From IMG/VR virus record IMGVR_UViG_3300042453_002532, positions 1 through 26,112 of that record: 26,112 nucleotides of DNA; one strand, written 5' to 3'. How positions within the stretch are numbered: position 1 is the first letter of the stretch; each line of letters begins with the position of its first letter. Under the pieces are notes generated by a model. That model was not told the origin of the DNA and ran no database searches. It worked only from the letters and a program-made list of their open reading frames with translations. The DNA is from a virus. Shown here piece by piece: positions 4,889 through 25,534 of this stretch. The position numbers were made by a program, and so were the translations under genes.

Positions 4889-5149
4889 ATGGGCGAGCCA
4901 TCGCACGGCGAGATCCTCCGCGCCATCGGCGTGCTGGAGGGCCAGCTCAAGCAGCTGCTCGACGCCGCCATAAGTGACAAAGGGGAACGCAGCAGCTTGG
5001 GCGTTCGTGTTGGCCGCCTTGAAACGCGCATGGCGCAAGTAATCATCCTCGCAGTGGTTGCTGCAATGCTCAGCCCCATCATCTGGTCTGAGATCAAAGG
5101 CGCCTTTGCTTATCGGCAGTCGCTTCCTCAACACATGCAACGCCCATGA
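4889..5149 (+). CDS. XhlA-like coiled-coil/membrane protein, lysis accessory candidate
   Basis: 86 aa from the ATG at 4889; a TTG at 4865 in the same frame would add eight residues but overlaps the previous gene. Residues 1-55 (HGEILRAIGVLEGQLKQLLD ... VGRLETRMAQ) form a heptad-like coiled coil, and residues 51-70 (QVIILAVVAAMLSPIIW) are a single transmembrane helix followed by a short charged tail. This layout, a soluble coiled coil then one C-terminal membrane anchor in about 80 aa, is that of XhlA/hemolysin-type phage proteins, which act at the membrane with a holin during host lysis. The gene ends in an ATGA overlap with the endolysin gene, tying it to lysis. Assignment is by topology and context, not by a catalytic motif. 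Confidence 0.6.
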   Translation: MGEPSHGEILRAIGVLEGQLKQLLDAAISDKGERSSLGVRVGRLETRMAQVIILAVVAAMLSPIIWSEIKGAFAYRQSLPQHMQRP

Positions 5150-6324
5150 CTTCCGGCCCATTACGCCTAAGCGACCTGTTTAAGTTCTATCGCGGCCTTC
5201 CGCATCAAATGGCCGCCGTAAGCGAATTGGAAGCAGCAATAAACAAACGCGCTCCCCAACTCCTAAGCCGAGACCAAGACTGGTTCAAGACCTGGAGCGT
5301 CCCAGGCAAACAGACCGACCTCGCTGATGCAATTTCCTTGATTAAGGAGTTTGAAGGCTGCCATCTTAGCGCCTACCCCGATCCGCTAAGCGGCGGCGAC
5401 CCTTGGACGATCGGTTACGGCACAACGCGCTATGGCGCTGGCGACCCCGTAAAACGCGGCGACAAGATCAACGTAATCGAAGCCGATATGCTTCTCCGCC
5501 TTGAGGTGGACCGCATCGCCGAACGCCTCCGCTCCACCGTGCCCAGCTGGGCCACGCTGAACGATTCGCAGCGCTGCGCACTTGTAAGCTTCGCTTACAA
5601 CTTAGGTGCCGACTTTTACGGCAAGCCTGGGTTCGACACCATCAGCGCAGCGCTGCGCGACAAGGACTTTACTGCCGTACCAGCGGCACTGCTGCTTTAC
5701 CGCAACCCTGGTACGAATGTCGAAGCCGGCCTACTGCGCCGCCGTAAGGCCGAAGGGGCACTGTGGCAAAAAGGCACCCCACAACTGCAACAGCAGGGCA
5801 TTTTGTTGCGCGTCCCTTATGAGGCACAGAACGACAACGCCAGCGGCACCGGCTACCGCGAATGCTTCAGCAGCAGCGCTGCCATGGTAAGCCGGTTCTA
5901 CGGCAAAGTTGCCAACGATAATGCTTACAACAAGATCCGCGCTAGGTACGGCGATACCACCGACGCGCAAGCGCAGATCAAGGCGATGCAATCGCTGGGA
6001 CTTAACGCGCGGCTGCGCACGAACTGTAATCCCGCTGTAATTGACACCGAATTAGAGGCTGGCCGCCCCGTGATGGTCGGCTGGCTGCACAAGGGGCCTG
6101 TCGGTGCGCCTACCGGCGGCGGTCACTGGAGCGTGATTATCGGCGCAACCAGCGGCGCCTACATCCACAACGATCCGAACGGCGAGGCCGACATGGTGAA
6201 CGGCGGCTACCTCAACCACACCAAAGGTGCCGGAATCGCCTACAGCCGTAAAAACTGGTTGCGTCGCTGGGAGGTTGATGGCCCCGGCACCGGCTGGGCA
6301 ATGCTTGTAAGCCACGCCCCTTAG
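5146..6324 (+). CDS. Two-domain endolysin: GH24 lysozyme plus C39-like peptidase
   Basis: 392 aa. Residues 1-58 are an N-terminal module (LSDLFKFYRGLPHQM) of unknown role. Residues 60-207 are a T4/P21-type GH24 lysozyme: IKEFEGC with catalytic Glu70, then YPDPLSGGDPWTIGYGTT and the C-terminal AGLLRRRKAEGALW signature. Residues 220-392 look like a C39-like (Peptidase_C39_2) papain-fold domain with Cys240 in RECFSSSAAM, His327 in GGGHWSVIIG and the acidic/amide site HNDPNGE (342-343). The lysozyme cuts the glycan strand; the second domain would cut peptide cross-links, giving two activities against peptidoglycan. The start codon overlaps the XhlA-like stop (ATGA). No signal peptide is present, so release probably needs a holin. 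The domain calls are strong; the peptide substrate is unknown. Confidence 0.88.
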   Translation: MTSGPLRLSDLFKFYRGLPHQMAAVSELEAAINKRAPQLLSRDQDWFKTWSVPGKQTDLADAISLIKEFEGCHLSAYPDPLSGGDPWTIGYGTTRYGAGDPVKRGDKINVIEADMLLRLEVDRIAERLRSTVPSWATLNDSQRCALVSFAYNLGADFYGKPGFDTISAALRDKDFTAVPAALLLYRNPGTNVEAGLLRRRKAEGALWQKGTPQLQQQGILLRVPYEAQNDNASGTGYRECFSSSAAMVSRFYGKVANDNAYNKIRARYGDTTDAQAQIKAMQSLGLNARLRTNCNPAVIDTELEAGRPVMVGWLHKGPVGAPTGGGHWSVIIGATSGAYIHNDPNGEADMVNGGYLNHTKGAGIAYSRKNWLRRWEVDGPGTGWAMLVSHAP

Positions 6325-8196: not shown

Positions 8197-8475
8197 CTAC
8201 TTATCAAGCCAAAACGCCACACAATCCTTAGCGTGCTTACCGCCGCTGCGCTTGCCCTCGGGGAATCCCAGGCCGCACGATCCCTCGATGAACTGCCAGT
8301 GGATGCACTGCTGGCAGCGCGTTTTTCCATTCGTCGCCACCAGGGCATCGGCGTAGAGCTGCTCGGCCTCCATAAGCGCCGTCTCCAGTTCCGTACCACG
8401 CAAAGGCAGCTCCAGCACGCCCTGCTTTGTCCGCAGCCGCAGCATCCACCCCTCAGCCTGGGGGATCAGCACCAT
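8197..8475 (-). CDS. Small Cys/His-containing hypothetical protein
   Basis: 92 aa from the ATG at 8475, or 102 aa from an ATG at 8505; I prefer the shorter form because it cuts the overlap with the upstream dNMP kinase gene from 53 to 23 bp. The N-terminal half is beta-like (MVLIPQAEGWMLRLRTK) followed by a helix; the C-terminal half has a likely metal site, CQQCIHW then SCGLGFPEGKR and HAKDCVAFW (four Cys with nearby His). This resembles small zinc-binding proteins I recall from cyanophages. It is the last gene of the leftward arm. Function unknown. Confidence 0.65.
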   Translation of the reverse strand: MVLIPQAEGWMLRLRTKQGVLELPLRGTELETALMEAEQLYADALVATNGKTRCQQCIHWQFIEGSCGLGFPEGKRSGGKHAKDCVAFWLDK

Positions 8476-9016
8476 CCTGCCCGAGTGGTATCTGAGAGAC
8501 GGCATGAAGCAGCTGCTCTAATGTTCCATCGTTCACAATATAACGCGCAAAATGGGGCCAATCATCTAGGCTTCCCTCCGAGGCGTGCGTGTGCGTATTA
8601 ACCATTCCTTTACGAGTAATCTTCCACATCTCACCCCCTAAGCTGCGGATCAGCTCTGCTTCGTTTTCAAACCTTACATCGTCCACAACAACGTACTCGT
8701 GCCGCTTAATACGCGCTTGCCACACACGCAGCCACACATCAGGCGCAACGCAAGTTCTTCCCCACTCCGTACCCAAGGTCTGCAGCAGGTGACGCGTACT
8801 CACCCCTAAGTCGGTGAGCACAATCTCCTTATCGACGTAAAGCCGCTGCGCAGCCTGTTCCGGCGTATAACCGATGCCTACAAGCAACGGAAACACCATT
8901 TCCTTCAATGGTTCTGCGAAGGGCACCCGCACAAACACGCTGCTCTCCAGCGCATGACTAACCGCCGTCTTACCGCTACGAGGCGCAGGAGAATAAAGTC
9001 CAATAAGCTTAGTCAT
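8453..9016 (-). CDS. Deoxynucleoside monophosphate kinase (T4 gp1-like)
   Basis: 187 aa. Near the N-terminus is a P-loop variant, YSPAPRSGKTAVS (Gly15-Lys16-Thr17), followed by a helix and PFAEPLKEM, the layout of phage dNMP kinases of the T4 gp1 / adenylate-kinase-like group. VVVDDVRFENEAELIRSLGG is typical of the Walker B side and the lid region of this family. The enzyme phosphorylates dNMPs to dNDPs, turning degraded host DNA into precursors for phage DNA synthesis. It starts in an ATGA overlap with the upstream sigma-factor stop (9013-9016), so the two are co-translated. Length is close to other short phage members of the family (T4 gp1 is longer). Confidence 0.82.
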   Translation of the reverse strand: MTKLIGLYSPAPRSGKTAVSHALESSVFVRVPFAEPLKEMVFPLLVGIGYTPEQAAQRLYVDKEIVLTDLGVSTRHLLQTLGTEWGRTCVAPDVWLRVWQARIKRHEYVVVDDVRFENEAELIRSLGGEMWKITRKGMVNTHTHASEGSLDDWPHFARYIVNDGTLEQLLHAVSQIPLGQDGADPPG

Positions 9017-9894
9017 ACAAGCCTCACTGATTTCAAGCGCAGACGCATTTTAAGGTGTGCAGCCTCGATGCGCTGCCTAATGCGTTCTCTTGAAACATTG
9101 TCCTCAGCTGCGATGCTAGACAGTGACATCGGTTCGCCGCCATTAAGCCCGTATCTGCGCTGGATCGTAAGCAGTTCGCCTTCAGTTAGGCAGGCGAGGG
9201 CGATCTGGAACATCGCCTGTTTTTCATCCTTCTCCATGCAGTCCTTCTGCCTATCCAGCGAGTCGGTGTCTGGGATAAGCTCCAGGATTGGGCTGCCCGT
9301 CTCACTTACCAAGGCATCGAGGCTGCGATGCCAGGCGTTCCGGGCTAGCAGCGTCTGCATGTGCGCAACCTCAACATCTGCCTCTGCCGCCATCTGCGCA
9401 ACAGACGGCATCTTGCCGTGCTCCTGCAGATGCGCCTTCTGAAACCGCACCACCTTATACACCTTGTCGAGTCCGTGCTGCGGCACACGGATAAGCCGCT
9501 CCTTAGCGTCAATGCCCCGCGTAATTGCCTGCCTCACCCACCAATAAGCGTAAGTGGAGAACTTATAACCCTTACTGCTGTCGAATAGTTCGACTGCGCG
9601 TGTAAGTCCGAATGCACCTTCCTGTACTAAGTCCATAAGTTCCATGCCGCTACCATTCAGACGCCGCGTGTACTGCTTAGCAACACTGACAACCAACCTA
9701 AGATTGCAGTTAATCAGCTTACGCTTAGCGCGTTCAGCCACCTTAAGTGTGCGCTTCTCTTGGGCGCTAAGTTCCTGCTTATCGGCTAGGGCAGTGCCGC
9801 ACTCGATTTGACGCGCTAGTTGAATCTCTTGTTCCGCGGTGAGCAGCGGATACCTAGCGATTTCGTTTAAGTAATCCTTAACAGAGTCGGTCAT
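9013..9894 (-). CDS. Group 2-like sigma-70 factor of cyanobacterial type
   Basis: 293 aa. Region 1.2 begins at residue 3 (DSVKDYLNEIARYPLLTAEQ), close to cyanobacterial SigB/C/D-type factors. Region 2 covers 58-128: NLRLVVSVAKQY, MELMDLVQEGAFGL and GYKFSTYAYWWVRQAITR, the core-binding and -10-recognition segments. Region 3 follows (RLIRVPQH at 134-140), and region 4 has the helix-turn-helix SLSSIAAEDNVSRERIRQRI at 258-277. All four regions are intact and the non-conserved region is absent, as in group 2 sigmas. It would bind host core RNA polymerase and direct it to phage promoters. The start has the context AAGCTTATGAC. Its stop overlaps the dNMP kinase start. Known myoviral cyanophages use a shorter gp55-like sigma, so this host-like version is notable. 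Confidence 0.93.
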   Translation of the reverse strand: MTDSVKDYLNEIARYPLLTAEQEIQLARQIECGTALADKQELSAQEKRTLKVAERAKRKLINCNLRLVVSVAKQYTRRLNGSGMELMDLVQEGAFGLTRAVELFDSSKGYKFSTYAYWWVRQAITRGIDAKERLIRVPQHGLDKVYKVVRFQKAHLQEHGKMPSVAQMAAEADVEVAHMQTLLARNAWHRSLDALVSETGSPILELIPDTDSLDRQKDCMEKDEKQAMFQIALACLTEGELLTIQRRYGLNGGEPMSLSSIAAEDNVSRERIRQRIEAAHLKMRLRLKSVRLV

Positions 9895-9948: not shown

Positions 9949-10167
9949 TTACTCTTGGCCTGGTTCAAGCAGCTTTACAGTTCGTCGCCTTCCAGCCTTT
10001 TCGATCCACCGGAAAGCATCGCTGGGTAGGAGCAGCTCAGGCGCCTGGAGCGTGTACCAGCGGTGCTCACACGCTTGGCAATGCCTCCTTCTAACGATCT
10101 GATCACCATCGGCATAAGCCGTCATGACAACGCTATTGCGCTGGCACGCACATCCTGGGCATCGCAT
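9949..10167 (-). CDS. Zinc-ribbon protein like the NrdR N-terminal domain
   Basis: 72 aa from the ATG at 10167 (context GCGCTTATGCG). The protein opens MRCPGC (Cys3, Cys6) and continues VRRRHCQACEHRW (Cys30, Cys33), a four-Cys zinc ribbon with the RRR-x-C-x-x-C-x-x-RW spacing of NrdR, the repressor of ribonucleotide reductase genes. NrdR also has an ATP-cone of about 100 aa; here only about 35 residues follow, so the nucleotide-sensing part is absent. A DNA-binding or transcription role is likely from the fold. It is followed by a 54-bp gap and then the sigma gene. Ogr/Delta-type zinc activators are an alternative family. Confidence 0.72.
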   Translation of the reverse strand: MRCPGCACQRNSVVMTAYADGDQIVRRRHCQACEHRWYTLQAPELLLPSDAFRWIEKAGRRRTVKLLEPGQE

Positions 10168-10172
10168 AAGCG

Positions 10173-10502
10173 CTAAATTACCGTCTTAGTGTTGAATTGG
10201 GGGTCTGATTCGTCCAGACCATGGGCCAGCGGGTCGAACGAGCCTTCGACATTAGCATCCCCAACAGGCGCTGGAACGTCCCCCTTCCTCTTAGCGTCCA
10301 TGTCCGCCAAGCTGCTAAGCCATGAGTCCAGCGATTCGCGCATAGGCAGCCCTTTTGCGATGCTTAGGAAGCGGCGCAACTCTTTCACGTCGCGCACGAA
10401 CACCGAAGTGCCGCTGGAGTAGGCGATAAAGTAGCGCCCATTGTAATCGCGCCCAGTCTCGATAGACTGGTGCAAACTCAGGCGTAAGGTGTCGCGCTTC
10501 AT
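10173..10502 (-). CDS. Hypothetical protein (109 aa)
   Basis: 109 aa from the ATG at 10502, chosen because it makes an ATGA overlap with the upstream membrane-protein gene; the frame is open further upstream but overlaps that gene. The N-terminal 55 residues look like a beta-rich fold (RLSLHQSIETGRDYNGRYFI, then YSSGTSVFVRDVKELRRFL), followed by a helix and a polar, acidic C-terminus. No named family recognised. It ends 5 bp before the zinc-ribbon gene. Last member of the mini-gene array in transcription order. Confidence 0.65.
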   Translation of the reverse strand: MKRDTLRLSLHQSIETGRDYNGRYFIAYSSGTSVFVRDVKELRRFLSIAKGLPMRESLDSWLSSLADMDAKRKGDVPAPVGDANVEGSFDPLAHGLDESDPQFNTKTVI

Positions 10503-10639
10503 AGGCGTGGCGTACGGTTTGTGGGTGTAGCTAGCCTCAGCAGCAAGGGCAGCAGGCGCACAAAGGCCGCTTTGATGCACAGCTCAACCGCTGCGCCGAG
10601 GGCGAGCAGCAGGGCGAGGGCAAGCAGGGTGTTAAGCAT
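10499..10639 (-). CDS. Small hydrophobic membrane protein (46 aa)
   Basis: 46 aa from the ATG at 10639. Residues 2-18 (LNTLLALALLLALGAAV) and 24-37 (AAFVRLLPLLLRL) are hydrophobic, separated by a short segment with Glu19, and a polar C-terminus ends NRTPRL; one or two membrane helices are likely. Both ends are fixed by overlaps: its ATG overlaps the preceding gene's stop by 8 bp (ATGCTTAA) and its TGA overlaps the next ATG (ATGA). These junctions are the main reason to accept such a short ORF. Function unknown. Confidence 0.65.
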   Translation of the reverse strand: MLNTLLALALLLALGAAVELCIKAAFVRLLPLLLRLATPTNRTPRL

Positions 10640-10916
10640 CGGCACCCTCCACCTCAGGCACCGGCTCGATGGCAGGGCGGCCCCAGCGGGCAAGGACGGC
10701 GCGGGCGTAGTCCTTGTCGGTGCTGAAAGGGTCTTCAAACACAGCAACGGCCAAGGCCATTAGCTCCTCATCCGTCGGCCCCTGCGGCTCGGGCTGGGCA
10801 AGCAAGGCGCGGGCGTTGTTCCGCCAAGCATCCCAATCCACTCGTTGGCCATCTTCATATTGATCCAGTTTTTGAAGGATCTCAGAGCACAGGGCTTTGT
10901 AATCGGGGTCAGGCAT
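10632..10916 (-). CDS. Mini-gene array protein with TDEEL ... ARAVLARWGRP motif
   Basis: 94 aa. It starts MPDPDYKALCSEILQKLD, has ALLAQPEPQGPTDEELMALA in the middle and ends with RAVLARWGRPAIEPVPE. I recall this modular pattern, a short helix pair around PEPQGPTDEEL and a C-terminal RAxLARWGRP, as widespread in cyanophage hypothetical proteins. A longer relative with two copies lies at 11098-11625. A good ribosome-binding site (AAGGAG, 6-7 bp spacing) precedes the ATG, within the end of the upstream gene, which overlaps by 8 bp (ATGCCTGA). Role unknown. Confidence 0.75.
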   Translation of the reverse strand: MPDPDYKALCSEILQKLDQYEDGQRVDWDAWRNNARALLAQPEPQGPTDEELMALAVAVFEDPFSTDKDYARAVLARWGRPAIEPVPEVEGADA

Positions 10917-11085
10917 CTAAGTCTCCTTCACTTGTGGGGGCAGTGCTCCAAATTGTGTGAAGCTCATCGCATCGACGTTTCAGCATGTCCGTTTGCAGCC
11001 AATAATCGAGGGGTGACGCAAAAGTCTCAACATTGATCTCTCGGATGATGATTGTTTTCTCTTGCTTAGCTGGGTAGAGAGCCAT
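10909..11085 (-). CDS. Hypothetical protein of the mini-gene array (58 aa)
   Basis: ATG at 11085 to TGA at 10909, 58 aa. The sequence reads MALYPAKQEKTIIIREINVE, then a helix with TFASPLDYWLQTDMLKRRCD, and ends PTSEGDLDA. I do not recognise the family. The 8-bp overlap with the next gene (ATGCCTGA) and 12-bp gap from the previous stop fit the array. Its C-terminal PTSEG is also the near-C-terminus of the unrelated protein at 12404-12619, because both genes share 15 bp of DNA that carries the next gene's ribosome-binding site. Confidence 0.65.
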   Translation of the reverse strand: MALYPAKQEKTIIIREINVETFASPLDYWLQTDMLKRRCDELHTIWSTAPTSEGDLDA

Positions 11086-11097
11086 TAGTATGCTTAT

Positions 11098-11625
11098 TTA
11101 GGATTGTTCATTATCCATCGGCGCCACCGGCTTGATTGCGGGGCGGCCATAGCGGGCTAAAGCGGCGCGGACAAAGCTGAGAATCTCGCCGGGCTCAGAG
11201 GTAATCCTTCCACCATCAACGGTGTATGAGTCGGGTTCAGGAAGATTACTGGCACGACTAAGCAATTCAAGCAATTCCTCATCCGTCGACCCCTGCGGCT
11301 CTCTTCCGTGCGGGCCGCGGCCCCAGCGGGCTAAAGCGGCGCGGATCGTCTCGCTGAACTCGTCTGACTTGAAACAACGTCGCCACCCATGCACTTCTGG
11401 GTCCATTTCCTCTAAGGGGACTTCCGCAGCAGCGTCTGCCCATTCTTCTATCTCTTGATCCGTTGGTTCCTCATCCATCGGCCCCTGCGGCTCGGGCTGG
11501 GCTAGCAGGGCGGCGCGGGCGCGGGCCATAACAATCCGCAGGTGGCCGGGGTAACGCACTTCGGGATGTCGGTTTTCATCCAGTCCTTGCAGTAGCTCAG
11601 CGCACAGCGCACGGAAGTCAGTCAT
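11098..11625 (-). CDS. Array protein with two TDEEL/RAALARWG modules
   Basis: 175 aa from the ATG at 11625 (8-bp ATGACTGA overlap with the upstream stop); the frame stays open upstream inside the neighbour. The protein begins MTDFRALCAELLQGLDENRH like the 10632-10916 product, has ALLAQPEPQGPMDEEPT near residue 45, a first TIRAALARWGRGPHG, then EPQGSTDEELLELLSRA and a second VRAALARYGRPAIKPV. It is thus a tandem duplication or fusion of the short family unit. GGAG lies 8 bp before the start. Function unknown; the family seems to be a mobile small-protein module in cyanophages (recollection, not a search). Confidence 0.72.
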   Translation of the reverse strand: MTDFRALCAELLQGLDENRHPEVRYPGHLRIVMARARAALLAQPEPQGPMDEEPTDQEIEEWADAAAEVPLEEMDPEVHGWRRCFKSDEFSETIRAALARWGRGPHGREPQGSTDEELLELLSRASNLPEPDSYTVDGGRITSEPGEILSFVRAALARYGRPAIKPVAPMDNEQS

Positions 11626-11935
11626 TAGTTTGCTCCGATTTGTAGGGTCCAGTGAGTTGGCCGTGTTCGTCAGTAAAGCCAGCTTCAAAAAGAAACTGCC
11701 TGGCAGCGTCCTTGTCGCCAGCTAAGGCTCGCTCCATCAGTGTTGGAGCGGTAAGCTCAGCGGCCATGTCTTCCAAGGTTGAGCACCGAACACCTACAAG
11801 GGTGGTATCATCGCTGTAGCTCTCCCAAGCGTTAGCCAAAAGAATAAGCACATTAGCGATGCCATGGCGCATGTTCTGGCCGTATTCAAACTCTTCAATC
11901 AAACGCTGGGCGCGTTGAGTTAGGTGGTCAGTCAT
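11618..11935 (-). CDS. Helical hypothetical protein of the mini-gene array (105 aa)
   Basis: 105 aa from the ATG at 11935, set by the 8-bp ATGACTGA overlap with the upstream stop. Sequence: MTDHLTQRAQRLIEEFEYGQ, then HGIANVLILLANAWESY, a middle segment with STLEDMAAELTAP, and an end GFTDEHGQLTGPYKSEQTND. Predicted mostly helical and soluble. I recognise no family. It follows the array plan at both ends (8-bp overlaps), with no clear Shine-Dalgarno site, so it may rely on coupled re-initiation. Confidence 0.65.
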   Translation of the reverse strand: MTDHLTQRAQRLIEEFEYGQNMRHGIANVLILLANAWESYSDDTTLVGVRCSTLEDMAAELTAPTLMERALAGDKDAARQFLFEAGFTDEHGQLTGPYKSEQTND

Positions 11936-12179
11936 TTTGAGCGGCAGCAAATAAGTTGGTTGCGATTTCATTGCGACGCTTCTGCGTTTGACAGACAAGC
12001 TCGATGTAAGCATTTATGGCGGAAGCAGCGAGGAGTCGGTCTTGCATGCCAAAGCAGTAATCCTTTCGTGTGTACCTGAGCGCGTGCTCCAAGTCACGCA
12101 GTCGGCTACCAGGAATGGGCCATACCGTTCCATCAAAGTGAACAAACGGACTGCCTTCATGGATGGTGAAATCAGCCAT
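11928..12179 (-). CDS. Hypothetical protein of the mini-gene array (83 aa)
   Basis: 83 aa from the ATG at 12179 (8-bp ATGGCTGA overlap with the upstream stop; GAGGG lies nearby). It starts with a small beta-like part MADFTIHEGSPFVHFDGTVW followed by helices (RLRDLEHALRYTRKDYCFG and LAASAINAYIELVCQTQKRR). No known family. The frame extends upstream on the same strand but there it runs through the coding part of the neighbour, so the overlap start is preferred. Confidence 0.65.
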   Translation of the reverse strand: MADFTIHEGSPFVHFDGTVWPIPGSRLRDLEHALRYTRKDYCFGMQDRLLAASAINAYIELVCQTQKRRNEIATNLFAAAQND

Positions 12180-12411
12180 TGCACTTACCCTCCAGCTCGG
12201 CGGCGATGGCGAGAAGCTGATCGCGCACTTTGCAACGATTGCGAATGGCGGCAAGTGAAAAGGATCCTTTGTCGATGTCACTAGGCTCCGGCACCACCTG
12301 ATTGGCAGCAGCTCGCAGGGCGGCGGCTGCAATCTCATCGGCAGGCGCAGGGCAAATTTCGCGCACGGCATCCAGAATCGCCTGAGCGGCGGGGGAGAGA
12401 GGCTCAGCCAT
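12172..12411 (-). CDS. Array protein, LSPAAQAI ... LLAIAAELEG family, copy 1
   Basis: 79 aa from the ATG at 12411. It begins MAEPLSPAAQAILDAVREIC, has AALRAAANQVVPE in the middle and ends QLLAIAAELEGKCNG. A paralogue with the same three blocks lies at 12612-12818. I recall this three-block family from Synechococcus phages and some cyanobacteria, unnamed. GAAGGA precedes the start within the shared 15-bp boundary sequence. Both junctions are 8-bp ATGGCTGA overlaps. Role unknown; the even spacing of Ala and Leu suggests a small helical domain. Confidence 0.72.
   Translation of the reverse strand: MAEPLSPAAQAILDAVREICPAPADEIAAAALRAAANQVVPEPSDIDKGSFSLAAIRNRCKVRDQLLAIAAELEGKCNG
12187..12213. repeat. 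27-bp direct repeat, copy 1 (copy 2 at 12624-12650)
   Basis: Bases 12187-12213 and 12624-12650 are identical and encode the IAAELEG end of the two paralogous array genes. In both places the repeat is followed on the coding strand by a few bases and then the ATGGCTGA junction, so the homology reaches the boundary with the next gene. Confidence 0.85.
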
Positions 12412-12619
12412 CAAAGTTTCCTTCACTTGTGGGTTGGTGCTTCTTGGCGTGCTGCTTGCAATAAAGACCGTCAGGGCCATGGCCACGTTTGCGGCAGCAT
12501 TGGTGAGGAATCCAGGTGCCTGGCGCAGAAGGCCAGACTTCTTCAATGCAGCGGGTCGGGTCTTCTGCTTGCCCTTGAGGGCAGCCACCCCAGACCCCGT
12601 ACCGGCGTTGGTCAGCCAT
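12404..12619 (-). CDS. Small zinc-binding-type protein (HQCCRKRGHGPDGLYCKQHA)
   Basis: 71 aa from the ATG at 12619. Conserved-looking Cys/His positions are Cys13, Cys24, Cys41, Cys42, His47, Cys54 and His57, in the pattern GGCPQG, DPTRCIEEVW, HQCCRKRGHGPDGLYCKQHA. Proteins with DPxRC and GHGPxGLFCKQHAK are frequent in cyanophages as I remember them, always hypothetical. A structural zinc site and a DNA- or RNA-binding role are plausible but not shown. The start is set by the 8-bp ATGGCTGA overlap and has GGAGG upstream. Its last residues, PTSEGNFDG, come from the shared boundary DNA. Confidence 0.75.
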   Translation of the reverse strand: MADQRRYGVWGGCPQGQAEDPTRCIEEVWPSAPGTWIPHQCCRKRGHGPDGLYCKQHAKKHQPTSEGNFDG

Positions 12620-12818
12620 TGCCACCCTCCAGCTCGGCGGCGATGGCGAGGAGGCAAAGGCGTATTGAGTGCCTGGCAAAGCCCGCATGTGTTTCCGGCA
12701 CCACCTGATCCGCAGCAGCGCGGAGGGCGGCGGAAAGGTCGTACTCGTATGGGCAGTCCTCCGGAGTGTTGTAAGCGGCATTCCATACAGCCTGCGCTTG
12801 TGGCGACAGTTCAGTCAT
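12612..12818 (-). CDS. Array protein, LSPQAQAV ... LLAIAAELEG family, copy 2
   Basis: 68 aa from the ATG at 12818 (ATGA overlap with the upstream stop). Blocks MTELSPQAQAVWNAA, SAALRAAADQVVPET and LLAIAAELEGGNG align with the 12172-12411 product. The middle between blocks has diverged, while 27 bp at the 3' end (12624-12650) are identical to 12187-12213 of the paralogue. Function unknown. The pattern of identical ends and divergent middles suggests recombination or recent partial duplication rather than simple drift. Confidence 0.72.
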   Translation of the reverse strand: MTELSPQAQAVWNAAYNTPEDCPYEYDLSAALRAAADQVVPETHAGFARHSIRLCLLAIAAELEGGNG

Positions 12819-12844
12819 TCAGGTAGCGCCTCCAGTGCGCGGCG
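12813..12844. repeat. 32-bp direct repeat, copy 1 (copy 2 at 13187-13218)
   Basis: Bases 12813-12844 and 13187-13218 match in 31 of 32 positions (T versus A at 12824/13198). Each copy spans the end of one array gene (RRALEALPE), a GGAGG ribosome-binding site, the ATGA stop/start overlap and the first codon or two of the next gene. The genes on either side do not otherwise resemble each other. Confidence 0.88.
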
Positions 12845-13192
12845 GATCGTGTTGTAAGTGTTTTGTTTGTCGTCGTGATCTGGATTGCCATAGATGTAGG
12901 TATCTAAGGCGGCATAAGCCTGCTCCTTCAAGCTCGGCGGCTTGGGGCGGCGAATCATATGGAGATCTATTGCAACATGCTTGCCGTCGCAAATCAATTC
13001 ACGGGCAAGCACCTCACAGCACGCCTCCAGTTCCTGGTCAGCCCCTGCTTGAAACGCTTGGATCAATAAAACATCAGGATGTTCTTCTTCGTCAAACCAT
13101 TTGTCTTCCCACTTCTTTAGTTGATCAGAAGGTGGAATAGCTGGGTGTGGATCAATGACAAACAACTTGTCACCGTTGATTTGTTTAGTCAT
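12815..13192 (-). CDS. Hypothetical protein of the mini-gene array (125 aa)
   Basis: 125 aa from the ATG at 13192 (ATGA overlap). Sequence begins MTKQINGDKLFVIDPHPAIP and continues with an acidic helix (LKKWEDKWFDEEEHPDVLL), a helix with AGADQELEACCEVLARELI, and ends TIRRALEALPE. The C-terminal RRALEALPE recurs in the next upstream gene, and the DNA there is a near-identical 32-bp repeat. No named family. A ribosome-binding site (GGAGG) sits inside the repeated boundary. Confidence 0.68.
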   Translation of the reverse strand: MTKQINGDKLFVIDPHPAIPPSDQLKKWEDKWFDEEEHPDVLLIQAFQAGADQELEACCEVLARELICDGKHVAIDLHMIRRPKPPSLKEQAYAALDTYIYGNPDHDDKQNTYNTIRRALEALPE

Positions 13193-13455
13193 TCAGGAAG
13201 CGCCTCCAGTGCGCGGCGCTCCCATGCCCAGGCCACAGCCTGCTTAGCGATGTGCTGGTCCGACTCGGCCAGCGTGGCCTCGCCGCCCATGCTCGACCAC
13301 TCCTCAACCAAGCCACTCGGCAGCTCAGGAGTTGGCTGGTTGAGCACATGCTCAACCCACGCGACGTGGGTCATGACTGCGTGCGGTCCAGGCGGCAGAC
13401 CATAGGACTCCTGCCACCACTTGCGGAAGGCTTGTTCAACTGCAATGCGATCCAT
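13189..13455 (-). CDS. Hypothetical protein of the mini-gene array (88 aa)
   Basis: 88 aa from the ATG at 13455, which shares one base with the upstream TGA (TGATG). It starts MDRIAVEQAFRKWWQESYGL, with several Trp and His (VMTHVAWVEHVLNQ), and ends AWERRALEALPE. I recognise no family. The C-terminal segment and its DNA are shared with the 12815-13192 gene although the rest of the two proteins does not align. Confidence 0.66.
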   Translation of the reverse strand: MDRIAVEQAFRKWWQESYGLPPGPHAVMTHVAWVEHVLNQPTPELPSGLVEEWSSMGGEATLAESDQHIAKQAVAWAWERRALEALPE

Positions 13456-15176: not shown

Positions 15177-17045
15177 CTACTTAGCGTCGGCCCAGGTTTT
15201 GCCGTAATTGGCCTCGGCCAGCGCCGGGATTTCACCCAGCCATAAGCTCTCTGCGCTCTCCATGCACTCCTGCAGTATTCCCATCCACTTGGTTTCCTCC
15301 CCTTCCTTGACCAGCAGCAGAATTTCGTCGTGAATAACAGCGGCTAAGCGGGCCTCAGCTTCGCTGGCACGGCTTAGTGCGGGCCACAGCTTGCCCAACG
15401 CACACTTCAAAATCGCCGCACCACTCCCCTGCACCGGCGTATTACACCTGACAGTAACCCTATTCATATCCCCAGGCAAATAACGCCGCATCCCACTAAG
15501 CGGAATGCGAGTCTCAGCCCACTTGTTCCCGCTCGACTCGTAACTAAGCTGCGCGTTTCGTTTTTGCCACTCGTTAACACCCATGTAAGTGCTGTGGAAC
15601 GTATCCCTAATCTGCTGCGCCTCTTCAAGCGTCATCGTAATACCCATAGCACCGGCATAATCCCTAAGACCACTCGCACCCGCGCCATACAGCAAACCGA
15701 AATTTGCAGACTTAGCCACCTGCCTACGTTGTTTCATCTCCTTAGCATCCTCAACCGGCTCGCCATAAATCGCCTCAGCGGTAATGGTGTGCAAGTCCTT
15801 ATCTGCCTGGAACGCCGCAATCATCGTTGCATCCTCGGCAACCGCTGCGGCCAAACGCAGCTCCATTTGCCCGAAGTCAGCGCACACGAAGTTCCAACCG
15901 TCCGGCGCCTCAGCCGCAAGCCTAAACGAATTATCACGCGGAACTTGCTGTAAGTTTGGCTTAACGCAACTCATGCGTCCAGTTTCTGCACCCAACTGCA
16001 TATAACCAGAACGAATAAAGCCATCGTCTTGCTGATGCTCTAACAACGAACTTACCATCTGCCTACGCTTCTCGGCACGCTTCCACAACAAGTAAGTCTG
16101 GACAACAGCGTGGTCCGCTGCATACGAACGAAGCGACTTCCGTGACGCACTCGGTTTACCGTCCAGCAACGGAACAGTCCCAAGAAGCGTTGTAAATTTC
16201 GCAATAAGCTGCTTTGGCGAATTTAGGTTGAATCCCGGTGGCTTCTTCGTCCCAAGCCGTACAGCGCCTTCTGCCCTGGCCCGTAGGTTGAAACTTCCGT
16301 CCTCGTCGCGGGGCAACTTTTCCGACTCCGGCAGCGCCGCATCCAAATCCTCGACGAACTTCTTGCCGTACATCTCAATGTCGCGCTCCAGCGATTCCTG
16401 CACCTCGACAAGTTTCTGCCTGTTGAACGGGAGCCCGGTGCGCTGCATCTGCGCCATGGCCGGCAAGCACTTGCACTCCAGCCCGAACGCCGTCGTGAGT
16501 CGTGCCACCGCCAACCGTTCCTGCAGCACCAGATCGAGATCGAGCAGCGCCTGCACGTCCGCTGCCGCGTAGGCCAGCTGCTCCCTGCTCAGGACTGGTG
16601 CGCTCCAGTCGCTCGCCTGCAGCTCCTTGCTGAGCGTGCGCTCCAAGTAACGCTCCACCACAAATCCCAAGCCATGCTTGAGATTCGGAACGCCATTGGT
16701 AAGCAGCTTAGATGCCAACATTGTGCAGTAAGTCACGCCGTTGGGAATAATGCCGTGCTCCTGCAACCAGCCCAGGTCAAACACCGCATTGTGCGCGATG
16801 TAAGTGCGCGGTGTAGCAAAAAAGTCCCTTACTTGCTGCCACCCCTTCTCATCCAGCTCCCAGCAGTCAATAACAACAATGGCGCGGTCGCGGGCACCGA
16901 TCTGCAGCAGCCGCAACCCACCAACAACCGGCTGTAGCCCAGTGGTCTCTGAGTCAAACGCCACCGTCACCGACGCGGCAACCTTCCACAGATGCTCAAC
17001 ACCAAACAGCACAGGCGGCATAGCCGACGCAACAGGCTCAGACAT
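15177..17045 (-). CDS. polA: Family A DNA polymerase with 3'-5' exonuclease
   Basis: 622 aa. Exonuclease domain, residues 20-180: FDSETTGL (Asp31, Glu33), HNAVFDLGWL (Asp90) and YAAADV (Tyr159, Asp163), all catalytic residues present. Polymerase domain, about 190-622: ETGRMSCVKPNLQQVP, motif A CADFGQMELRLAA (Asp390), motif B RRQVAKSANFGLLYG (Arg441, Lys445, Phe449) and motif C IHDEILLLV (Asp573, Glu574). No 5'-3' exonuclease domain, as usual in phage Pol A. Phe449 matches E. coli Phe762, the residue that discriminates against dideoxynucleotides. It would be the phage replicase, working with the primase-helicase encoded just upstream. The stop lies in a TAAG context. Length is typical of phage Pol I-like enzymes. 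Confidence 0.95.
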   Translation of the reverse strand: MSEPVASAMPPVLFGVEHLWKVAASVTVAFDSETTGLQPVVGGLRLLQIGARDRAIVVIDCWELDEKGWQQVRDFFATPRTYIAHNAVFDLGWLQEHGIIPNGVTYCTMLASKLLTNGVPNLKHGLGFVVERYLERTLSKELQASDWSAPVLSREQLAYAAADVQALLDLDLVLQERLAVARLTTAFGLECKCLPAMAQMQRTGLPFNRQKLVEVQESLERDIEMYGKKFVEDLDAALPESEKLPRDEDGSFNLRARAEGAVRLGTKKPPGFNLNSPKQLIAKFTTLLGTVPLLDGKPSASRKSLRSYAADHAVVQTYLLWKRAEKRRQMVSSLLEHQQDDGFIRSGYMQLGAETGRMSCVKPNLQQVPRDNSFRLAAEAPDGWNFVCADFGQMELRLAAAVAEDATMIAAFQADKDLHTITAEAIYGEPVEDAKEMKQRRQVAKSANFGLLYGAGASGLRDYAGAMGITMTLEEAQQIRDTFHSTYMGVNEWQKRNAQLSYESSGNKWAETRIPLSGMRRYLPGDMNRVTVRCNTPVQGSGAAILKCALGKLWPALSRASEAEARLAAVIHDEILLLVKEGEETKWMGILQECMESAESLWLGEIPALAEANYGKTWADAK

Positions 17046-17339: not shown

Positions 17340-19847
17340 TCACTTCCACAGCTCCTCCGCCTCCCGCCGCAGACGCTCCAGCTCCTCGACGCTCCGCTCA
17401 GCGGGCTCAGCGAGCCTCGCGCGTATAGTTCCCGTATCTGTCCCATCAGGGTTACTTCGCTTGCGCTGCAACGGTTTTGCAATGGGACACCCTTCCTCTT
17501 TTTCGGGAAGTGTCCCATCTGTCGTACCAGCACCGCTCACGTTTTCCACAACCACGCCCTCACCTGTGGAAAACTCCTCATCGCTAATGGGACACACCCC
17601 CTCGTTTTCACCCCCCTGTCCCATTGCAGAATCCGCTCCAGCAGAAGGGTTTTGCCCTATGAGACACGTTCTACCTACTTCTACGCGCGAGGAACTTAAA
17701 ACCGCCTGGTAATGGTGGAGCGCCTTACCCCCCTTATCAGCCTGAGTCTTATCTGCGACACAGATGAGACCGCGCTTCTCCAAGCGCTGCAGCGCCTTCC
17801 TGATCGCTGTGACCCTGCCGCCAACGATCGGATCGGCGTTCAGCTCTGCCCTGGTACGCGCTTCGGGGTAGATCACGCGCAACCGCGCCAGCACGCGGTC
17901 GGTGATGGCGCTGGGGCCTGTTTCCGCTGGATCGACCTCTGGCACGTAGTCGCTGAGGGTGAAGGTCAGGTCGTCCTCCAGCTTCAGCAGCAGCCCTGTG
18001 CCCCCACGACCGCTCCGCGACTTCTCGATGGCTATGAGACGCGCATTCGCCCCAACGGCCTCTTGTTGGCGCTCTGAGGGCCGTTTCAGCGCCCACACCT
18101 CGTCCACAGCATCCCTAATTGCCGAAGTCCCCCTAAAACCGCCCTGCTTATTCGCGTGATGAATAATTACGATGGTTGCTGCCGGAAACAACACACCATT
18201 ATTACGTGTAAGCCAATACAACGGCGTAGCAAAATCACTCTTGTTCTCATCGAACGCCTTACCACCACTACACCCAATAAGCGAATCAATAACCACAAGG
18301 CTTGGACGTAGCTCCTCCATAAGGCTTATGAACTGGGCGTAGCGCTGGAGCGCCCAGTCGGTGCGGATCGTGACCGGCGCATGAGCGGGCATCTCGACCT
18401 CCTGGAGCTGCTCTTGGAGCTGCACCAGCGGCTGGTCGCCGTTCAGCAGCAGCACAGGCCCCTGCTGGACCGGCACATGCTTCCCGCGAACGACGAACGG
18501 CAGCCCCATCGCCACATGCTTCGCCAGCGTCCACGCCGACATCGACTTACCATCCCCACCAGCCCCATAGATGAGTACAACAGACGGACTAGGCAGCAGA
18601 TCAGGAATGAGGTACTTACGCTCAAACTCCTGCTCCATAAGTTGTGCGATCGACATGGTGTCTGTCTGACCCTCGTACTGGATCTGATCAACCAGCAACC
18701 GCTCCAACGCCTCCTTATCCCTATACCCCGACTCCACCGCCAGCGCGTGCATCTTGTAATTCAGTTCCGCCGGATTATCAATCTGCAACACCTCCTTAGC
18801 CCGCCTAATTACTTCGGCGAAGTCGAGTACGACATGGCGGTAAGCCTGAGCCTGTGTGCTCTCGACCTCCTCAAGCGTTGCCCTGCTGGAGTCCTGAAAT
18901 CGCAACCTCCCTGGGTCGTACTCGTCCGCCAGCTTCACCAGGCTGCCCAGCCCCAGGTTCCCCGGCTTCCCGACCCGCTCCACAAGGCGCGGCCACTTCT
19001 CCTCGCACGGGTTCCCCTTCGTCCAGTCGTCTTCAAACGCCGGATCCTGCTCGCTCCATGCCGTCCACAGCGCCAAGCCCATCTCAGTGGGCAGCGCCTC
19101 AGCCACCATCGCGCCGATCTGCCACCACTGATCCTCACTCCCCCTGCCCAGGTGGGGCATGACCTGCAGGCAGTCGTGAACGATCTCTGCAACCTCATCG
19201 CTGGTCCGACCCGAGAAGTCCAGGCCGCGGCGATTCTTCACCAGGCCCTGCACCGGCGCATCCGCCTGCTTCCGCGCCCGCATCTCAGCGAGCAACCACT
19301 CCGGCGCATCGGGAATTGCATCAAAGCTCCCCGAAACAAGCTTGTAGTGCCCCGGCTTGGCCTTAGCGTCCCTCGACCCCGGATAAGCACCGGCAATTAC
19401 GCCCTGCATCCCCCATAAGATTTCGTAGCCGCTGTTTCCTTGGCTAAGTGTCATACCGCGCACTAAGGCGCGTTGGTCGGCTGGCACGCGAAAAACGAAC
19501 TTGGCCGCATTCGGCTTTGTGCTGCGGACTTGCGGAGCATCGGCAATGGACTCGCCCCACTTCTTAAGCAGCGCAGCAAGATTCGCATCAACATCCAGAA
19601 TTACGATGCCGTCGCTGCGGATGCCGGTGAACAGGCCCACGGCCTGGAACGTCTCGGGCTTCTGCTCCAGCAGCAACGCCACATCCTCCGGGTTGAACCG
19701 GCGGTGGTGGGACGCCTCATGTGGCGCCTTCCCCTGGCTCTCCGATTCGTGCTTCCCGAACTTGACCCCTTTGGCGTAGATGGGGGCGTAAGCGGGGCCT
19801 ACAGGCAGTGTTCGCACGAAGCGAATCAGCCCTTGGTGCGTGTTCAT
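17340..19847 (-). CDS. Primase-helicase: PrimPol domain plus RepA/RecA-type ATPase
   Basis: 835 aa. Residues 1-190 resemble the bifunctional primase/polymerase (PrimPol) domain, with IVILDVDANL (Asp85, Asp87) as the metal-binding pair and a conserved HYKLVSGSFDAIPDAPEWLL end. Residues 215-310 look like a PriCT-type linker (WWQIGAMVAEALPTE, LALWTAWSEQDPAFE). Residues 415-600 are a RecA-fold, RepA-like (AAA_25) helicase: Walker A YGAGGDGKSMSAW (428-435), Walker B SLVVIDSLIG (Asp521), HHANKQGGFRGTSAIRDAVD. A winged-helix-like segment (about 650-720) and a low-complexity tail follow. It would prime and unwind phage DNA for the Pol A enzyme. It is the first leftward gene after the divergent region and starts CGCATGAAC without a clear ribosome-binding site. 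Confidence 0.88.
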   Translation of the reverse strand: MNTHQGLIRFVRTLPVGPAYAPIYAKGVKFGKHESESQGKAPHEASHHRRFNPEDVALLLEQKPETFQAVGLFTGIRSDGIVILDVDANLAALLKKWGESIADAPQVRSTKPNAAKFVFRVPADQRALVRGMTLSQGNSGYEILWGMQGVIAGAYPGSRDAKAKPGHYKLVSGSFDAIPDAPEWLLAEMRARKQADAPVQGLVKNRRGLDFSGRTSDEVAEIVHDCLQVMPHLGRGSEDQWWQIGAMVAEALPTEMGLALWTAWSEQDPAFEDDWTKGNPCEEKWPRLVERVGKPGNLGLGSLVKLADEYDPGRLRFQDSSRATLEEVESTQAQAYRHVVLDFAEVIRRAKEVLQIDNPAELNYKMHALAVESGYRDKEALERLLVDQIQYEGQTDTMSIAQLMEQEFERKYLIPDLLPSPSVVLIYGAGGDGKSMSAWTLAKHVAMGLPFVVRGKHVPVQQGPVLLLNGDQPLVQLQEQLQEVEMPAHAPVTIRTDWALQRYAQFISLMEELRPSLVVIDSLIGCSGGKAFDENKSDFATPLYWLTRNNGVLFPAATIVIIHHANKQGGFRGTSAIRDAVDEVWALKRPSERQQEAVGANARLIAIEKSRSGRGGTGLLLKLEDDLTFTLSDYVPEVDPAETGPSAITDRVLARLRVIYPEARTRAELNADPIVGGRVTAIRKALQRLEKRGLICVADKTQADKGGKALHHYQAVLSSSRVEVGRTCLIGQNPSAGADSAMGQGGENEGVCPISDEEFSTGEGVVVENVSGAGTTDGTLPEKEEGCPIAKPLQRKRSNPDGTDTGTIRARLAEPAERSVEELERLRREAEELWK

Positions 19848-19878
19848 GCGCTACAATCCTATGCGTGAAGAGGCATCG

Positions 19879-19913
19879 CGCCCCTCAACAGCCCAGCTGT
19901 GAGGGGCGTTTTT
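19879..19913 (+). terminator. Strong hairpin with T-run in the divergent region (leader terminator or attenuator)
   Basis: An 8-bp GC-rich stem (CGCCCCTC at 19879-19886 with GAGGGGCG at 19901-19908), one bulged A, then a 5-bp stem ACAGC/GCTGT and a CCA loop, followed by TTTTT (19909-19913). It reads as an intrinsic terminator for rightward transcription. No rightward gene ends here, so it may block read-through, attenuate the right operon or end a short transcript. A TACAAT box lies just upstream at 19852-19857 without a good -35. Confidence 0.75.
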
Positions 19914-19914
19914 C

Positions 19915-19943
19915 ACTGTAAGCCCTTGGCCTTGAAAGCGCAA
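19915..19943 (-). promoter_or_regulatory. Candidate leftward promoter for the replication arm
   Basis: On the minus strand, TTGCGC (19938-19943) and TACAGT (19915-19920) are separated by exactly 17 bp and point toward the primase-helicase gene. Matches to consensus are 3/6 and 4/6, so the site is weak by sequence; the ideal spacing and its place upstream of an 11-kb leftward gene run support it. Its transcript would begin with the hairpin at 19879-19908. Confidence 0.3.
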
Positions 19944-20044
19944 CGATGTACTACGCCATGGGTTGCTGGCCGTGCTAAGCTGCGTGAGCACTCGGCACCG
20001 CCCCTCTGGGCACCGCCTCCTGCATCCACACCCCACAACCTCTT

Positions 20045-23344: not shown

Positions 23345-23463
23345 GCCGCGCCGCTGCGCTGCTGCGCCGCTTAGCTTACGTTTTACAACACCCCTTACAC
23401 GACCCCTTACCCCGCTTCAGCTTACGTGTGCTACGCTTACCCGTGTTCAACCCCTTAGCACCA

Positions 23464-24195
23464 ATGCTTACACCCCTTATCCGCCTGGCCGACGCCGCCT
23501 ACCGCGCCGGCGTCCCCCTTATGTCCGACAGCGCCTTCGATCGCCTGGCCAGCCTCGCGCCCAACGCCCTGCCCCCTCTCACGACGCTGCTTAGCCTCGA
23601 CTGCCACCCCGACCCGCACGACTGGCTGGAGCGCAACCCCGGCCCCTACGCCGTCCAGCTCAAGGCCGATGGCGTAAGCGTCAACCTCGTCTACCTCGAC
23701 GGCCGCTTCAGCCACGCCCACCTACGCAGCGGCCGCGACTGCACCGACGCTGCCCTCCGCGCTGGTGCGCTGCTCGACCTCCCCGGCTCCCCCGTGGGCC
23801 GCATCGAGGTCCGCTGTGAGGCCATGGCGTTTGCCTACACCAACCCCGGCAAGCCCCCCACCCGCAACGCCTGCGCCGCCGCCCTCCGCCGTAAGGGGTT
23901 GCAGGACAAGCTAAATCTCAGCCTTCTCGCCTTCGACATCACCGGCATCGACGCCATCACCACACACTGCGGCGCCATGGTCTGGCTCAAGTGCGCCGGC
24001 TTCGCCACCCTCGACACCCTGGAAGCCGCCACCGCCACCGAGGTATTTGAGCTGTTCGACGCCTTCTGCGTCTGCCAACACACCCTGCCCTTCCCCTGCG
24101 ACGGCATCACCGTCAAGATCAACTCCAAGATCCGCCAGCGCCAGCTCGGCAACGACTCCCGCGCCCCACGCTGGGCCATAAGCATGAAGCCGTAA
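23464..24195 (+). CDS. Stand-alone NAD-type DNA ligase adenylation domain
   Basis: 243 aa from the ATG at 23464 (a GTG at 23428 is in frame). It reads as LigA domain Ia plus the nucleotidyltransferase domain: LADAAYRAGVPLMSDSAFDR (Ia-like), motif I QLKADGVSV with adenylated Lys67, motif III RIEVRCEAM (Glu115), an N-P-x-x-x-P-T-R-N-A-x-A-A-A-L-R segment, motif IV CDGITVKIN and motif V APRWAISMK ending at Lys242. One residue later the protein stops, so the OB-fold, zinc finger, HhH and BRCT parts of LigA are all missing. Full LigA is about 670 aa. This fragment could take AMP from NAD+, but sealing DNA would normally need the OB-fold. The protein may be a remnant or work with a partner. The stop context is TAAGCTGCG. 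Confidence 0.82.
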   Translation: MLTPLIRLADAAYRAGVPLMSDSAFDRLASLAPNALPPLTTLLSLDCHPDPHDWLERNPGPYAVQLKADGVSVNLVYLDGRFSHAHLRSGRDCTDAALRAGALLDLPGSPVGRIEVRCEAMAFAYTNPGKPPTRNACAAALRRKGLQDKLNLSLLAFDITGIDAITTHCGAMVWLKCAGFATLDTLEAATATEVFELFDAFCVCQHTLPFPCDGITVKINSKIRQRQLGNDSRAPRWAISMKP

Positions 24196-24495: not shown

Positions 24496-24641
24496 ACCGC
24501 AAAATCCTCCTAATCTGCGACGTATTTTGCTTCGTAATCGCAGCTGGAACGATCGCCCTCATCACCTGGGGCATCACCACCTACCCCTCCCCCACCCACA
24601 GCGGCACACAACCCCTAAGCCGCCCCACACCCACGCGCTAA
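24492..24641 (+). CDS. Small single-pass membrane protein (49 aa)
   Basis: GTG at 24492 (GTGA overlap with the upstream TGA) to TAA at 24639-24641, 49 aa. Residues 4-28 (KILLICDVFCFVIAAGTIAL then ITWGI) are a transmembrane helix with a short basic N-terminus, followed by a Pro/Thr-rich tail. Signal-anchor topology is likely. Its stop codon lies inside the first unit of the 15-bp tandem repeat. Role unknown; a membrane-targeted host-takeover protein is one possibility. Confidence 0.58.
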   Translation: MNRKILLICDVFCFVIAAGTIALITWGITTYPSPTHSGTQPLSRPTPTR

Positions 24642-24696
24642 GCCGCTAAGCGCTAAGCCGCTAAGCGCTAAGCCGCTAAGCGCTAAGCCGCTAAGC
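24637..24696. repeat. Four perfect 15-bp tandem repeats (GCTAAGCCGCTAAGC)
   Basis: Units at 24637-24651, 24652-24666, 24667-24681 and 24682-24696 are identical; a degenerate fifth begins GCTACGCCGCC. Each unit contains TAAGC twice. The array starts at the stop codon of the 49-aa membrane protein and lies in a non-coding gap (24642-24748). It could be an iteron-like binding site, a recombination product or slippage of the over-represented word. Confidence 0.9.
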
Positions 24697-24748
24697 GCTA
24701 CGCCGCCCAACTGCCCCTTACCCCTTACCCCTTACCACGCCGCAGCTT

Positions 24749-25213: not shown

Positions 25214-25534
25214 ATGTCGCGCCTCCTTACCCGCCACCAACTGCTAAGCCTCTACCACTCCATCCCCCTTACCGCCACTTACGAAGACCGCCTCGTCGCC
25301 TATGGCAATGCGGTCCAGTCCTGGCTAAGCAGCCCCGAATCGGAAGATCCGCGCTTACCCCTCTCCTCCCTCTGCCTACCGCAGCGCATCTATGGCGCCC
25401 TCCGCCGCGCCGGCTACACCTACGTCGATGACGTGCGCAACGCCACCGACGCCCAACTGCTCAGCGCCCGCGACTTCGGCCCTAAGGGGCTGCGCCTGCT
25501 CCGCGACGCGTTAAGCGCCGCGCCGCGCCGCTAA
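25214..25534 (+). CDS. RNA polymerase alpha C-terminal-domain-like protein
   Basis: 106 aa from the ATG at 25214 (context CACCTATGT). Residues 1-45 are helical and unique (LLTRHQLLSLYHSIPLTATY). Residues 48-101 align by eye without gaps to the alpha-CTD of bacterial RNA polymerase: LPLSSLCLPQRIYGALRRAG, YTYVDDVRNATDAQLLSARD and FGPKGLRLLRDAL. Of the DNA-contacting residues of E. coli alpha, Arg265 corresponds to Arg58, Gly296 to Gly89 and Lys298 to Lys91, while Asn268, Cys269 and Ser299 are replaced by Gly, Ala and Gly. The rest of alpha is absent. It might occupy UP elements or activator surfaces and so alter host transcription. A general HhH DNA-binding protein is the alternative. Confidence 0.75.
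   Translation: MSRLLTRHQLLSLYHSIPLTATYEDRLVAYGNAVQSWLSSPESEDPRLPLSSLCLPQRIYGALRRAGYTYVDDVRNATDAQLLSARDFGPKGLRLLRDALSAAPRR

Follow-up and report, generated by a model that had tools for sequence, protein, structure and literature searches.

A cyanosiphophage-lineage, group-2-type sigma factor and its inferred role in steering host RNA polymerase to phage promoters

Why a cyanophage would encode what looks like a complete sigma factor of its host, and where such a gene came from, are the questions raised by an open reading frame in the window, the 26,112 bases of an IMG/VR virus record analyzed here. Group 2 sigmas were already known from cyanophages, those of cyanosiphophages having been published and deposited in GenBank years ago (PMC2784084, PMC3751600, and PMC6157547). 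A near-identity search found no isolate phage that is near-identical to the window. We conclude that the window sigma is a new, divergent member of an old, already described phage sigma family, and the most likely reading is that it directs the core RNA polymerase of the host to promoters of the phage, probably late ones.

The sigma reading frame and its neighborhood

Features of the window (coordinates, strand, description, and basis):
5146..6324, plus strand: lysozyme/endolysin of the opposite-strand module that sigma faces (protein matches)
8453..9016, minus strand: deoxynucleoside monophosphate (dNMP) kinase, with an ATGA overlap with sigma (Pfam DNMK, phrog_139)
9013..9894, minus strand: sigma-70 group-2-like factor, regions 1.2 to 4, 293 aa (Pfam, PHROG, NCBIfam, and alignment)
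9640..9680 (approximate), minus strand: loop TRRLNGSG with a 4-residue phage-lineage insertion, before region 2.2 (alignment and pattern count)
9949..10167, minus strand: NrdR-like zinc-ribbon-only protein, 72 aa, directly upstream of sigma (Pfam Zn_ribbon_NrdR)
10173..10580, minus strand: phrog_37139 protein of the sigma operon, upstream of sigma in many relatives (PHROG match)
15177..17045, minus strand: family A DNA polymerase, leftward replication operon (Pfam, PHROG, and NCBIfam)
17340..19847, minus strand: primase/helicase-like protein at the start of the leftward operon (Pfam and PHROG)
25214..25534, plus strand: stand-alone RNA polymerase alpha-CTD-like protein, 106 aa (PF03118)

The sigma gene is intact and starts with ATG, and its product surpasses the Pfam gathering scores for all four of the sigma domains: region 1.2 at 51.9 bits, region 2 at 68, region 4 at 38, and region 3 narrowly, at 26.0 bits against a cut-off of 25.3. 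The earlier note had called the protein a complete group 2 sigma, and the four domain matches bear that out. Region 1.1 is missing, because the protein starts at region 1.2 (residue 3), and regions 1.2 to 4, the lack of region 1.1, and the -10 and -35 readers together are those of group 2 of the sigma-70 family. When the protein was aligned in Escherichia coli numbering, the core-binding residues D403, Q406, and E407 were retained, as were most of the residues that read the -10 and -35 elements, with identity at Y430, W433, W434, Q437, and T440 for the -10 element and at R584, E585, R588, and Q589 for the -35 element; we take the roles of all these residues to be those assigned in E. coli sigma-70. 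The best PHROG was phrog_351, "RNA polymerase sigma factor" (248.8 bits, E 3.2e-73), and the best NCBIfam model was TIGR02997, the cyanobacterial RpoD/SigA family (253.7 bits). Because TIGR02997 is the nearest model and yet its curated cut-off of 384.5 was not reached, the window sigma is sigma-A/group-2-like but divergent.

An AlphaFold model of the protein (mean pLDDT, 83.8) resembled primary sigmas in holoenzymes with Z scores of 18 to 19, and Syn7942 SigA was among the structural matches (residues 1 to 189, 4.4 A). The pTM of the model was 0.49, and the arrangement of the domains is therefore unsure. The best PDB sequence matches were actinobacterial SigA/HrdB, which raised the question of an actinobacterial host. 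Such a host was rejected on two grounds: the phage clade falls with cyanobacterial sigmas, in a tree with only one actinobacterial sequence, and the lysozyme and the phrog_37139 protein both indicate Synechococcus phages.

The sigma gene is located close to the end of a leftward replication block that includes the primase-like protein and the family A DNA polymerase, and it faces a rightward block that ends in lysozyme, metallophosphatase, and HNH nuclease. Synteny was counted at 80 viral loci, of which 75 had enough DNA downstream of sigma, and the opposite-strand lysozyme followed sigma in 75 of those 75. The same was true of four of four isolate phages (S-CBS1, S-CBS3, S-LBS1, and KBS-S-2A), in which a sigma gene is annotated at the same place, where the leftward replication operon ends and faces lysozyme. 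The stop codon of sigma (TGA, 9015 to 9013) and the start codon of the kinase (ATG, 9016 to 9014) share four bases as ATGA, and the earlier proposal that sigma is cotranslated with a dNMP kinase agrees with this start-stop geometry and with the Pfam match. The kinase is directly downstream of sigma only in the window's subclade (19 loci, L002 to L020, and the fragments L027 and L047), and the arrangement was absent from relatives outside that subclade among the 80 viral loci. The NrdR-like zinc-ribbon gene is kept directly upstream of sigma in most close relatives within the subclade.

The endolysin at 5146 to 6324 on the plus strand is a phage lysozyme fused to a C39/AvrRpt2-like cysteine peptidase domain, and small genes at 10600 to 13220 on the minus strand contain repeated DNA blocks with the appearance of tandem duplications, similar blocks being found in related phages. 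A NAD-dependent DNA ligase of 255 aa at 23428 to 24195 on the plus strand consists of the adenylation domain alone. At approximately 1438 to 1833 on the plus strand, a Hint/intein-like domain is located toward the N-terminal end of the tail tip J protein, and its ordinary splicing is doubtful because Ala comes after the final HN. Finally, CTTA/TAAG is over-represented across the window (CTTA, 351 against 142 expected), and extremely so as CTTAG, GCTTAG being the strongest of these words (78 against 12 expected). Within codons, CTTAG occurred 64 times against 26 in synonymous shuffles, an excess beyond codon usage. The over-represented words are dense at 24620 to 24709 and around the sigma gene, and the excess is common to near relatives but was not seen in distant cyanosiphophages or hosts. 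When viral contigs were searched for an exact copy of one GCTTAGC-motif array of 22 bases, none matched.

Descent of the phage sigma

Whether the gene was taken from a cyanobacterial host, as the earlier note proposed, can be judged from its relatives. The nearest cellular homologues are picocyanobacterial group 2 sigmas, with 40 to 44% identity and promoter readers in common, and the kinship to cyanobacterial group 2 sigmas that had been claimed therefore stands. They differ, however, in lacking an insertion of 2 to 4 residues and in lying outside the phage clade, and the nearest host protein is 44% identical to the window sigma, whereas the nearest distinct phage protein is 70% identical. 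Relatives in IMG/VR number in the hundreds. The best isolate-phage matches by tblastn were in S-CBS3, KBS-S-2A, and S-CBS1, where the annotation reads group 2 sigma or RpoD, and the S-CBS1 and S-CBS3 records label the gene "group 2 RNA polymerase sigma factor." The sigmas of these three isolates (rpsD4 in S-CBS3) have the domains, the phage clade, the place before lysozyme, and the type of insertion in common with the window sigma, but they are approximately 42 to 43% identical to it and have no dNMP kinase directly downstream.

In a careful maximum-likelihood tree of 63 rows, 26 of them phage, all 26 phage rows were on one side of a branch that was present in 92% of bootstrap trees and had support of 93/88, short of the starred level. 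The all-phage clade excluded both group 1 SigA and the group 2 clades of the hosts. A constraint that united the window's subclade with the nearest group 2 sigmas from picocyanobacteria cost 91.8 log-likelihood units and was rejected with a p-AU of 2.9e-7, in a test for which the constrained group was picked after the first tree had been inspected. The viral set was gathered by similarity to the window protein and is thus biased to near relatives, and the host set was partly gathered likewise. The careful tree did not include the very long branches, namely, P-SS2, S-LBS1, and the cyanomyovirus sigmas. Where cyanomyovirus sigmas were placed (S-H34, S-B68, S-CREM2, and ACG-2014f), they appeared to stand elsewhere, on long branches, in keeping with the earlier distinction between the window sigma and the gp55-type sigma of myoviral cyanophages. 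The gp55 protein is a much reduced sigma, and the window sigma, complete from region 1.2 to region 4, is not of that type.

The insertion marks the same lineage. Between regions 2.1 and 2.2, phage sigmas carry 2 to 4 extra residues, the window reading YTRRLNGSGMEL and hosts YQNQGLEL. By pattern count, the spacer was 16 to 18 in all 74 viral contigs that could be scored, the single value of 18 in the genome list being the window itself, and also in five of five isolates (P-SS2, S-LBS1, S-CBS1, S-CBS3, and KBS-S-2A). In 125 of 125 host sigmas and in E. coli the spacer was 14, and the insertion was found in none of the 125. The sigmas of P-SS2 (ORF 113, described as a group 2 sigma, from a Prochlorococcus siphovirus) and S-LBS1 (RpoD-like, from a Synechococcus siphovirus) resemble the window sigma in having the insertion, here of 3 to 4 residues, but they are very divergent long branches in which the -35 readers are not kept in the alignment and the placement is uncertain. 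The loop precedes the region 2.2 helix, which, from E. coli sigma-70 numbering, we take to bind the beta-prime clamp helices. Adjoining a core-binding helix, the insertion is a candidate for what sets the phage holoenzyme apart from that of the host. No earlier description of it was found in the accessible portions of the cyanosiphophage sigma literature.

Recent host capture of the sigma gene is largely refuted by the tree, the AU test, and the lineage insertion. The proposal of a gene taken from a cyanobacterial host fails in that form, and the phylogeny with host sigmas gave the very outcome, a place among phage sigmas, that the earlier note had named as counting against it. It is possible, however, that the whole phage sigma clade descended from a picocyanobacterial group 2 sigma.

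Promoters and a second candidate transcription factor

Promoters that the sigma might read did not stand out in the window. The earlier note had suggested a search for matching promoters, and in three scans of the window, sigma-70-type promoters numbered 2, 0, and 5 against 3.6, 1.2, and 5.7 in shuffles, which is no excess. The divergent junction at 19848 to 20044 had no convincing conserved promoter block; all that stood out was a terminator-like hairpin and a TGTACTA block, which was weak. The window does not include the terminase and head genes, and the actual late promoter may therefore be outside it too. The hairpin, followed by a T run at approximately 19870 to 19915, is conserved in the relatives L230 and L238 and points rightward, though the genes on its left read leftward.

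The alpha-CTD-like protein is possibly a second transcription factor of the same phage. It matched PF03118 with 31.2 bits against a gathering score of 23.8, and 34 of its 36 PDB sequence matches were RNA polymerase alpha, the other two being weak RifR matches. Structure prediction gave a helix-hairpin-helix fold, for which alpha-CTD and RAD51 N-domain chains tie (Z, 5 to 6.6). Among relatives, the gene was found in one contig only (L238, 10001 to 10309), which encodes a sigma protein identical to that of the window, and it was absent from 33 other sigma-bearing records, many of them fragments. Matches to alpha-CTD occur in a few isolate phages, e.g., Bacillus phage Goe8. As we read the alignment, the protein appears to keep the DNA-binding arginine (R265) and to have lost the acidic sigma-contact residues. 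In region 4 of the window sigma, the alpha-contact patch is altered, the equivalents of K593 and R596 being A and L. Perhaps the altered region 4 and the free alpha-CTD-like protein form a phage-built initiation module in which the contact between sigma region 4 and alpha-CTD is rewired on both sides, but we regard this as a long shot.

Role of the phage sigma

How the window sigma serves the phage is a matter of weighing alternatives. We assign a probability of roughly 0.6 to the reading that this cyanosiphophage-lineage, group-2-type sigma redirects the core RNA polymerase of the host toward phage promoters, most plausibly late ones. The sigma would be produced along with the replication genes from promoters driven by host sigma and would compete with SigA for the host core enzyme, and the phage-sigma holoenzyme would then go to phage promoters of a sigma-70-like kind, with the rightward late genes as the most plausible targets. 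The proposed likeness is to the gp55-type late sigmas of T4-like phages, insofar as a phage sigma would redirect host polymerase to phage genes. The two sigmas of P-SS2 have likewise been proposed, by the authors describing that phage, to modulate host RNA polymerase (PMC2784084).

Alternatively, the phage sigma might be a general replacement that reads SigA promoters and, through its abundance or affinity, only draws core enzyme away from host templates to those of the phage, with no specificity for late genes. Its -10 and -35 readers are indeed the same as those of SigA, and canonical sigma-70 promoters are what the authors of the P-SS2 paper expected the group 2 sigma of that phage to read (PMC2784084). 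Canonical promoters are few in the window, however, and the conserved position, with the replication module on one side and the late module on the other, hints at timing, such that we consider general replacement unlikely but worth keeping in mind. It is improbable that the gene was recently captured from the present host and still acts like a stress (group 2) sigma of the host, holding the infected cell in a favorable state. While the picocyanobacterial kinship and the host-like promoter-reading residues speak for recent capture, hosts reach at most 44% identity when other phages reach 70%, the protein sits inside an all-phage clade from which its subclade could not be moved to the hosts, and the 125 host sigmas lack the insertion. 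Finally, there is next to no chance that the gene is decaying or a passenger without a role. The dN/dS of the gene was 0.006 to 0.04 against nine relatives at 94 to 96% DNA identity, a sign of strong purifying selection, and the gene is intact in all full-length relatives; together with the conserved synteny, these results refute a passenger or decaying gene for the lineage.

Redirection of host polymerase to phage promoters, which the earlier note had raised and which had been put forward before for P-SS2 (PMC2784084), is thus the reading we prefer. Full-length cyanosiphophage sigmas look like stolen host genes, but the tree makes them a phage lineage of long standing, which has an insertion of its own and a constant position in the genome. 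On those grounds, the cyanosiphophage sigmas are probable core regulators of this phage group, and the isolates S-CBS1, S-CBS3, KBS-S-2A, and S-LBS1 allow the timing and promoter choice of such sigmas to be studied directly.
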